Source: a virus
Virus record (IMG/VR): IMGVR_UViG_3300021964_000130
Location: 1 to 45,935 of that record
Reading direction: 5' to 3' (one strand)
Length of the DNA stretch: 45,935 bases
Shown: positions 29,173-35,860 of the stretch, piece after piece
How the letters are laid out: each line of letters begins with the position of its first letter
How positions within the stretch are numbered: the stretch's first letter is position 1
Made by a program: the position numbers and the translations under genes
The notes under the pieces: generated by a model
What the model was told of the DNA's origin: nothing
Database searches by the model: none
The model's input: only the letters and a program-made list of their open reading frames with translations

Positions 29173-31188
29173 ATGTCAGTAGATTTTTTTGAGGAAGGCA
29201 CTCAGTCCCAAAGTAAGAGAGGCAAGAAAGGGAGTAAGACCCCTGTATTAGATAATTTTTCAAGAGACCTTACACATCTCGCGGTTAATGGTGAGATCGA
29301 CCCAATTATTGGTAGGGATAAAGAAGTACTTAGGATTGCACAGATTCTTTCACGTAAGAAGAAGAACAACGTTGTCATTGTTGGTGACGCCGGTGTTGGT
29401 AAAAGTGCGTTAGTTGAAAAACTTGCATTGATGATTAGTGAGGGTACGTGTCCAACCAACTTATTAGATAAACGAATCATGTCTTTGAATCTAACTTCAC
29501 TTGTTGCAGGTACGAAGTATAGAGGTCAGTTTGAAGAAAGGATTAAAGTGATTTTAGATGAACTTAAAGACGCACCAAACGTAATTGTCTTTATCGATGA
29601 AATACATACAATGGTAGGTGCGGGTAACGCGTCGGGTTCGATGGATGCCGCGAACATATTGAAACCCGCACTTGCAAGAGGTGAGATACAATGTATAGGT
29701 GCAACCACCTTTGATGAATATAAGAAGAACATTGAGAAGGATGGTGCCTTAGTCAGAAGGTTCCAAAAAATAATTCTACAGGAACCTACACTACCCGAAA
29801 CAATAGACATTTTAAATAATCTTAAGGAGTCCTATGAGAATTTCCACAGGGTGGAGTATACTGAAAATGTAATTGAGACTATCGTTAATTTATCGAAAAG
29901 GTATATCACAGACAAACAGTTTCCTGATAAGGCCATTGATATCTTAGATGAGTTAGGGTCGGAAAAAAAGATAAATGTCAAAGTACCTGAATCTATTGAG
30001 AAATTAAAGAAACAGGCGGATGATGTTAGGGTTGAAAAATTAGAGGTTGTTAGATCCCAAGATTATGAACAAGCCGCACAGTTACGAGATCAAGAAAGAA
30101 AGGTCCTAAAGAAATTAGAAAGGGAGAAGGAGAAGTGGAATGAAGAACAACAGATTAACAGGAAACCAATCCACGTTGATGATGTTTATAATATGATCAC
30201 CAATATCACAGGTGTCCCAATCAATAAATTAGACACAAAAGAAACTAAAAATCTACTTAGTTTAGAGAAAACCATATCAAGAGACGTTATCGGTCAAGAC
30301 GATGCGGTCGAGATTATCGCAAAATCTATAAGAAGAAACCGTGTGGGTGTTAGGGGTAATAACAAACCTATTGGATCGTTTATGTTCTTAGGTTCTACAG
30401 GTGTGGGTAAAACTCATTTAGCTAAGACACTTGCGAAGACTTTATTTGGCGATCCTGATAAAATCGTTAGAGTAGATATGAGTGAATTCATGGAGAAACA
30501 CAATGTATCTAAACTAATTGGTTCTCCTCCGGGATATGTGGGTTACGATGAGGGTGGACAACTCACAGAAAAAATTAAAAACAATCCATTTTCTGTGGTC
30601 CTATTTGATGAAATCGAAAAGGCACATAAAGACGTATTCAATATCCTCCTTCAAATATTAGATGAGGGACACTTAAGTGATTCGTTCGGTAGAAAAGTGA
30701 ACTTTACAAACACATTGGTCATCATGACCTCTAACGTTGGTGCTAAGAAGGTTTCTGATTTTGGTGCGGGAGTTGGATTCACGAGTGATGGAGATAGAGA
30801 AAAAGTTAAGGATAGTATCATTAAAAAATCTCTGAAACAACAATTCTCACCTGAATTCTTAAATCGTATCGATGACATTATTGTATTCAATAAATTAGAC
30901 GATAAGTCACTTAGAAAAATCGTGAACATCGAATTGAGAAACTTGAATAGTCGTTTAGTTGAAAATGGTTATAAGATCGTCTTTGACAAATCCGTGACTA
31001 ACGAAATACTCAAAAGAAATTCAGAGGAAGAATACGGTGCTCGACCAATTAAAAGAATCATTCAAAATCTATGTGAAGATTTTATAAGTGATAGTATTTT
31101 AATGGGTGAAATTAACGAGGAATCTGAGGTTACATTAAAAATAAATGAGGGTATTATGGAAATTTCCAAAAATTTAACCCTCATTTAG
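29173..31188 (+). CDS. clpC: ClpC-type AAA+ unfoldase without Clp-N domain
   Basis: A 671-residue double AAA+ protein. D1: GDAGVGKS (Walker A, 71-78), [13 protein letters not shown] (Walker B, about 139-151). D2: GSTGVGKT (407-414), [11 protein letters not shown] (Walker B, about 475-485) and sensor 2 in [10 protein letters not shown]. Between them is a short UVR-like helix, [20 protein letters not shown], as in ClpC rather than the long coiled coil of ClpB. The protein starts only about 27 residues before the D1 block [13 protein letters not shown], so the adaptor-binding Clp-N repeats of ClpC (about 150 aa) are missing. VGF at 534-536 matches the ClpP-docking loop, so it may feed host ClpP. 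Divergent from hsp20. Confidence 0.9.
31143..31186 (+). terminator. Stem-loop at the 3' end of clp
   Basis: AAATGAGGGT (31143-31152) and ACCCTCATTT (31177-31186) form a perfect 10-bp stem ending just before the stop codon, with an internal GGAAATTTCC. T-rich sequence (seven T) follows 15 nt later. Possible terminator or mRNA 3'-end stabiliser. Confidence 0.45.
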
Positions 31189-33190: not shown

Positions 33191-33276
33191 GCCGGAGTGG
33201 TGGAATTGGTAGACACGAGGGACTTAAAATCCCTTGGACAGTAATGTCCGTGACGGTTCGAGCCCGTCCTTCGGTA
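33191..33276 (+). tRNA. tRNA-Leu(UAA): tRNA-Leu (UAA)
   Basis: Class II tRNA, 86 nt. Acceptor GCCGGAG pairs with CTTCGGT (two wobbles), the anticodon stem AGGGA/TCCCT encloses CTTAAAA with anticodon TAA, the long variable arm is GGACA/TGTCC, and the T arm is GACGG-TTCGAGC-CCGTC. CCA is not encoded. It reads TTA, the most common leucine codon in these genes. Confidence 0.95.
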
Positions 33277-33281
33277 CACAT

Positions 33282-33355
33282 GGCCCTGTAGCTCAATTGG
33301 ATAGAGCATCTGCCTTCTAAGCAGACGGTTAAAGGTTCGAGTCCTTTCAGGGTCA
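33282..33355 (+). tRNA. tRNA-Arg(UCU): tRNA-Arg (UCU)
   Basis: 74 nt; acceptor GGCCCTG with CAGGGTC, anticodon stem TCTGC/GCAGA around CTTCTAA (anticodon TCT), T arm AAAGG-TTCGAGT-CCTTT. No encoded CCA. It reads AGA, the dominant arginine codon of the phage. Starts 5 nt after tRNA-Leu. Confidence 0.95.
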
Positions 33356-33360
33356 CAAAG

Positions 33361-33449
33361 AGAGGTATAGTGAAGCTGATCAAATTGAGAATAAGGTAAA
33401 GGTTAACCTCTCATTAATGCAGTAACCTTGAAAGACCCGAAATACCTCT
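33361..33449 (+). ncRNA. Structured RNA element between tRNAs
   Basis: AGAGGTAT (33361-33368) and ATACCTCT (33442-33449) form an 8-bp closing stem around about 70 nt containing further inverted repeats (AAGGTTA...TAACCTT; GGTTAACC). The outer stem resembles an acceptor stem, but no D, anticodon or T arm can be made, so it is not a tRNA. It lies in the same transcript as the three tRNAs. Could be an independent RNA or a processing spacer. Confidence 0.4.
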
Positions 33450-33453
33450 TGAC

Positions 33454-33527
33454 GGACTCTTAGCTCAGTTGGTTAGAGCACCGCACTCATAATGCGATGG
33501 TCGGGGGTTCAAGTCCCTCAGGGTCCA
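33454..33527 (+). tRNA. tRNA-Met(CAU): tRNA-Met (CAU), possibly Ile2
   Basis: 74 nt; acceptor GGACTCT with AGGGTCC, anticodon loop CTCATAA (CAT), T arm GGGGG-TTCAAGT-CCCTC. The G1-C72 pair rules out a standard initiator tRNA, so it is elongator Met or, if the C34 is modified to lysidine, tRNA-Ile reading ATA. CCA not encoded. Confidence 0.9.
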
Positions 33528-33565
33528 CAAGTCTTTAAGACATAACTTAGGTCTAAAAAATATGA

Positions 33566-35429: not shown

Positions 35430-35831
35430 GGGGGTGACTTGGAATTGATTGGCGTAGTCAGTCATACGGGGCACGTAGTGAGATGTTTCCTATCACTTTA
35501 ATCTATGGAGGCGTTTTTTTAGACGGCAACGTTTATTCACAAATGGAATTAATGGGTCTTGTATCTGTTGATTCTAAAGTAGCGGTAGCCTAAGGCAACC
35601 CCTACAACGGGTCGGTGGACATATACCTTGGAACAGAAGTCCTTAAAGTGTGACACCACTTAAAAGTGTTAGAGGTGTAAGGTCGTCTCTTTAAATAAGG
35701 ATTGGACCGAGGATGTTAGTTTCCTCTAAATAACTTTCTATTTCGAAGTGTTAGAAAATACTGTTCTAAACGTGTAGTCCTTTATGGTTGGGACGAGCAA
35801 GACGAGGGTTCGAAACCCTCCACCTCCACCA
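35430..35831 (+). ncRNA. ssrA: tmRNA (transfer-messenger RNA)
   Basis: Complete 402-nt tmRNA. The acceptor stem GGGGGTG pairs with CACCTCC and contains G3-U70, the alanine identity element; discriminator A and an encoded CCA end the RNA. The 5' region GGGGGTGACTTGGAATTGAT matches tmRNA D-arm consensus and the T arm is GAGGG-TTCGAAA-CCCTC. After the UAGAC element, the resume codon is GGC at 35525 and the tag frame runs to TAA at 35591-35593. tmRNA frees stalled ribosomes and tags the protein for proteolysis, with SmpB from the host. A terminator follows directly. Phage tmRNAs are known but uncommon. Confidence 0.93.
35525..35593 (+). other. tmRNA tag-peptide reading frame, 22 codons
   Basis: Reads from GGC to TAA: the peptide begins GNVYSQMELM and ends VDSKVAVA. 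Typical bacterial tags are 8-15 residues ending in ALAA or similar; this is longer and ends AVA. The frame is chosen because it follows the UAGAC element and gives a small hydrophobic end; the +1 frames end in KWN or CIC. Confidence 0.75.
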
Positions 35832-35860
35832 AAGGGATCCTCGTGATCCCTTTTTTATTT
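35831..35860 (+). terminator. Rho-independent terminator of tmRNA
   Basis: AAAGGGATC / GATCCCTTT stem, loop CTCGT, T-rich tail. The first base is the last A of the tmRNA CCA. Confidence 0.88.

Follow-up and report, generated by a model that had tools for sequence, protein, structure and literature searches.

The window, a 45,935-base virus record analyzed here at its full length, carries a tmRNA gene with a 22-residue tag, and tags of this kind are conserved across a group of related phages, whose largest members encode the tmRNA together with a ClpC-like ATPase and ClpP, and in some cases SmpB. The best reading of these observations, which we hold to be somewhat better than an even bet, is a phage-specific module for trans-translation and Clp degradation. 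The window encodes T4-like head genes (Gp23 capsid, portal, and terminase), has a GC content of 35%, and shows a Shine-Dalgarno-like motif at only 1 of its 47 ORFs. Shine-Dalgarno motifs are characteristically scarce in Bacteroidota and the phages that infect them. Among the named phages closest by portal protein are Flavobacterium phage immuto (37% identity) and Microcystis phage Mel-JY01 (42%); neither has a tmRNA of this kind, and ClpP is present in Mel-JY01. Given the few Shine-Dalgarno motifs and the Flavobacterium phage among the portal relatives, the window probably derives from a T4-like phage with a host in the Bacteroidota. A search for DNA similarity to named phages returned short matches at the T arm and acceptor end only, and no close named relative.

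ARAGORN and the Rfam model RF00023 place the tmRNA (ssrA) gene within the same bounds, 35430-35831 on the plus strand (402 nt). The RF00023 match scores 75.5 bits (E value 1.2e-27; gathering score, 47) and covers model positions 1 to 374, the full length of the standard one-piece form, which excludes a permuted two-piece gene such as that of methylophage Melnitz. All seven pairs of the acceptor stem are formed: the 5' strand, GGGGGUG (35430-35436), holds G3 of the G3-U70 alanine identity pair, and the 3' strand, CACCUCC, is followed by the discriminator A and an encoded CCA (35821-35831). Two relatives, L100 and L108, show compensatory changes in this stem (G5-C68 to A-U and U6-A67 to C-G). 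The T arm, GAGGG-UUCGAAA-CCCUC, lies at 35804-35820. The initial annotation had recognized a phage tmRNA from the G3-U70 pair, D and T arms, and encoded CCA, and both programs bear it out. Several relatives lack an encoded CCA, their tmRNA genes ending in CAA, CTA, or CAC. A hairpin with a T run, resembling an intrinsic terminator, begins at the last base of the CCA (35831-35853, plus strand); chance alone would produce one site of this kind over the length scanned. The RNA folds better than dinucleotide shuffles (z = -3.8), and posterior values in the Rfam alignment are low in the middle region, the PK1-PK4 part. Upstream of the tmRNA is a tRNA cluster on the same strand (Leu-UAA, Arg-UCU, and Met-CAU; 33191-33528; ARAGORN and Rfam), and PADLOC gave no sign of defense genes among the tmRNA neighbors.

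Other RNA elements were seen at related loci. Group I introns (RF00028, about 69 bits) lie within the T-loop of the tmRNA at L147:1356-1568 (+) and L180:1689-1903 (-), with an insertion similar by sequence in L174 and L150; the position resembles a known bacterial insertion site, here in phage tmRNA. A GOLLD RNA (RF02032, 326.6 bits) is found about 1.6 kb from the tmRNA at L136:5084-5493 (-) and L157:6063-6472 (+), the latter surrounded by many tRNA genes. Permuted tmRNAs (RF04321) were detected in crAss phage cr272_1 (L128:978-1225, below the cutoff) and Chryseobacterium phage MA9V-3 (L129:980-1204), for which ARAGORN reads tags of 15 and 17 residues, so that the permuted gene form also exceeds the tag length of the Bacteroidota sampled below.

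The tag, GNVYSQMELMGLVSVDSKVAVA, is encoded by 22 codons (35525-35593, plus strand, including the stop), from the resume codon GGC (35525-35527) directly after a UAGAC element (35520-35524) to the stop codon UAA (35591-35593). In the Rfam alignment UAGAC|GGC sits opposite the consensus UAAUU|GCA, which places the resume codon in this frame. Position -4 from the resume codon (35521) is an A in all of 29 aligned phage tmRNAs (column A92); in E. coli the tag frame is set four bases after A86 (PMC2481249), and the equivalence of the two positions supports the 22-codon frame, as do the conservation of that frame and the stops that interrupt most of the alternative frames. The reading of 22 codons after UAGAC in the initial annotation is thereby upheld. 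ARAGORN starts the tag 14 codons later and reports only its last eight residues, VDSKVAVA, both for the window and at related loci. That the true tag is this short appears very improbable, and we have set the short form aside, since the covariance model puts the resume codon at the upstream GGC, the A at -4 of that codon is invariant, and the open frame upstream of VDSKVAVA is conserved. ARAGORN also misses many relatives' tmRNAs that Rfam finds and calls none in relatives with other tags; a common annotation tool thus shortens or overlooks these phage tags.

A search with a tag DNA pattern identified 51 matching IMG/VR viral contigs, all with tags of 20 to 22 residues of the type GNVYxxMExxGLxxTSxVA(V)A, for example, GNVYNNMEVAGLLATSKVAA. 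Because the first eight codons were partly specified by the pattern, conservation there is partly due to selection by the search. Differences in tag length within the group are whole codons, and the C-terminal residues are small and hydrophobic in every tag. Run against 84,980 bacterial and archaeal genomes, the same pattern matched four times, each time by chance in protein-coding sequence and never in a tmRNA. A tag of 20 to 22 residues is the rule in this phage group, and the description of the window's tag as unusually long needs dividing: it stands with regard to hosts but not within the group. More distant phage tmRNAs have tags of 21 to 37 residues, for example, GDIFADATVGHFVTEGAEVVA, AEELSSFTFEDAMAFVGADYAVAA, and GNVKTEVGTREDLVAALQNNFIQLEDLVVA. 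At L109:1501-1890 (-) and in L096 the tag reaches up to 37 residues and ends in AELAEAA; its resume codon is uncertain, as there is no A at the customary -4 position.

Pairwise comparison of the tag codons over all clades was not clear-cut (synonymous, 0.40; nonsynonymous, 0.21), and the analysis therefore turned to a count of distinct changes inside a single clade. In frame 0 of the main clade there are 23 synonymous and 21 nonsynonymous changes, where 76% would be expected to be nonsynonymous (P = 3e-5), the test counting distinct changes rather than independent events on a tree. The excess persists outside the region fixed by the search pattern (P = 0.0015), and the other two frames of the tag region showed no synonymous excess in the same test. 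For the N-terminal half of the tag, in a set that was not found by the tag pattern, the synonymous excess was not significant (P = 0.28).

A strong tmRNA was found in 141 of 148 Bacteroidota genomes. In 29 sampled Bacteroidota tmRNAs read by ARAGORN, the tags are 9 or 10 residues long and end mostly in LAA, MAA, or VAA (among them GENNYALAA, GEYNYALAA, DNNYSYRLAA, ANDYSYAMAA, and GNTSFAVAA), so a tag of 22 residues stands out against the probable host phylum, and the initial annotation was right to set it apart from the short tags of Bacteroidota. The most frequent tag length in the current tmRNA database is given as 10 residues (PMC11915505). The window's RNA shares with the bacterial one-piece tmRNA (RF00023), which works with SmpB, the tRNA-like domain, G3-U70 pair, T arm, CCA, A at -4, and tag frame with stop codon; it differs in being borne by a phage, in its tag of 22 rather than 9 to 10 residues, and in ending in VAVA rather than ALAA.

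The candidate partner of the tag is a ClpC-like AAA+ unfoldase of 671 residues encoded at 29173-31188 on the plus strand. Residues 13 to 655 align to positions 150 to 794 of ClpC and comprise both AAA modules (D1 and D2) and a region like the M-domain. The protein starts at D1 and lacks the N-terminal Clp_N domain, hence our use of "ClpC-like" rather than ClpC. At the position where ClpC docks to ClpP it has the tripeptide VGF, and VGF, IGF, or MGF is present in 76 of the 80 relatives; a search with the gene had identified 80 viral contigs, in many of whose records RF00023 finds full tmRNAs. Since adaptors that bind the N-domain would be unusable, direct reading of the long C-terminal tag by the unfoldase pore is plausible. 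The initial annotation had suggested that the changed tag end could alter which protease takes the product, or could favor a phage-adapted unfoldase such as this one; the AAA modules, the VGF motif, and ClpP in the large relatives support the enzyme half of that suggestion, and the reading of the tag by it stays a prediction. A longer ClpC-like protein, with an open frame of 842 residues, occurs in phages with the GDIFADATVGHFVTEGAEVVA tag (G043:C1:111717-114197 and G053:C1:127779-130259), and its match spans nearly the whole profile, unlike that of the window's form without the N-domain. Tag type may track ClpC type across these phages.

ClpP was found in 7 of 48 viral records (G024, G043, G055, G064, G065, G039, and G009), and the proteins retain the serine motif AASMG. 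All five relatives larger than 200 kb (the first five of these) encode the ClpC-like ATPase, ClpP, and tmRNA together, and three of the five also encode SmpB. Genes for SmpB are present in nine related records; on the 203-kb contig of G064 (G064:C1:171073-171947), smpB follows the tmRNA after a gap of 46 nt. The closest contig long enough for a test, G009, encodes a ClpC-like protein 80% identical to that of the window and has ClpP. It ends before the place of the tmRNA, and the window, which contains neither ClpP nor SmpB, is itself a fragment, so the absence of genes in either is uninformative. Some tag-bearing contigs, possibly partial, show neither ClpC nor ClpP, including G057 (181 kb). 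No tag-like natural degrons were found at the C-terminal ends of the window's proteins.

On the basis of these genes, we propose that the phage tmRNA is charged with alanine and enters stalled ribosomes with SmpB supplied by the host or, in some relatives, by the phage. Alanine and the 22-residue tag ending in SKVAVA would then be added to the stalled chain. The tag would probably serve as a degron for a phage Clp system in which the unfoldase without an N-domain feeds a ClpP barrel, encoded by the phage in the large relatives and by host or phage in the case of the window. During infection, the module would recycle ribosomes that had stalled because their mRNA was damaged or cleaved, and would clear truncated proteins without the tag recognition factors of the host. 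With a tag unlike the host's and an unfoldase and protease in the larger relatives, these viruses may operate a pathway of their own for tagging and degrading proteins. A fully self-contained, host-orthogonal form of it, with its own tmRNA, a private degron of 20 to 22 residues, its own ClpC-like reader, ClpP, and sometimes SmpB, is a more tentative proposal, to which we give a little less than even weight.

The main competing explanation is that the tmRNA is functional and that ordinary host proteases (ClpXP, ClpAP/ClpCP, Lon, or Tsp) take the tagged proteins, the tag having drifted in length and end because only its last hydrophobic residues count, and the co-occurrence with ClpC and ClpP reflecting large genomes. 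We regard this as unlikely, though as a serious contender: small hydrophobic residues end every tag, and C termini such as VAVA may also be acceptable to host ClpX or ClpA; several host proteases are described as sharing the tag (PMC3985003); and there are tmRNA phages with no detected Clp genes, such as G057 and cr272_1. Drift of this kind sits poorly, however, with conservation of the entire tag of 20 to 22 residues in the group, beyond its end, and with its dissimilarity to the 29 sampled Bacteroidota tags. The constraint on the tag's amino acid sequence, along with the carriage of ClpC and ClpP beside the tmRNA, also weighs against the view that ribosome rescue is itself the benefit, with a tag that is no degron, or a neutral or stabilizing one, and degradation irrelevant to the phage. 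That view, which we consider rather improbable, draws on the length of the tag and its dissimilarity to ALAA, and on an E. coli phage assay in which tag function is reported not to be critical for plaque formation (PMC2481249).

Phage precedent exists for a decoy that inhibits host trans-translation (PMC4131195 and PMC11915505): the RNA of mycobacteriophage DS6A, likewise a phage derivative of ssrA, is described there as a tRNA-like domain without a tag frame that inhibits tmRNA. At 402 nt the RNA in the window is full length, its tag frame is conserved and closed by a stop codon, and SmpB genes are present in several relatives, leaving the decoy explanation with hardly any probability. There is also precedent for a tag and its reader changing together. 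Mollicute tmRNAs have a longer tag ending in AFA that is read by Lon, which suits organisms without ClpXP (Gur and Sauer 2008, cited in PMC3985003 and PMC9382460). The phage tags resemble these in their length and in an altered end, which is considered to suit another protease, but the tags have no sequence likeness, and where Lon replaces a missing ClpXP in Mollicutes, these phages carry ClpC-ClpP. A Lon-directed tag of the Mollicute type was accordingly ruled out, the end being VAVA rather than AFA and ClpC and ClpP being present in the phage group.

Returning to the proposed phage module, its parts are known individually. Phage-carried tmRNAs, sometimes with SmpB, have been described in mycobacteriophages such as Bxz1 and in Bacillus phage G (PMC4131195), in Melnitz, whose ssrA is permuted and in two pieces unlike the one-piece gene of the window (PMC9004378), and in huge phages, which encode both tmRNA and SmpB (PMC7162821); the available portions of these accounts describe neither a conserved family of long tags nor a linked ClpC-ClpP. 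Jumbo phages encode ClpP, ClpS, and ClpA or ClpX, with ClpP and ClpS proposed to act against the host (PMC7824862). These components are phage encoded, as here, but there they are not tied to tmRNA, whereas in the present group single genomes combine a ClpC-like unfoldase with ClpP and tmRNA. Full-text searches of the open-license literature turned up neither a conserved long tag in phages nor a link between such a tag and ClpC/ClpP, and both the conserved family of long tags and its combination with ClpC-ClpP look new.

If the proposed module is correct, these viruses would possess their own protein-tagging code and their own reader of it, and the question of why phages carry tmRNA would become testable. 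In addition, proteolysis research and synthetic circuits would gain a new Clp degron family that may not depend on host tags.
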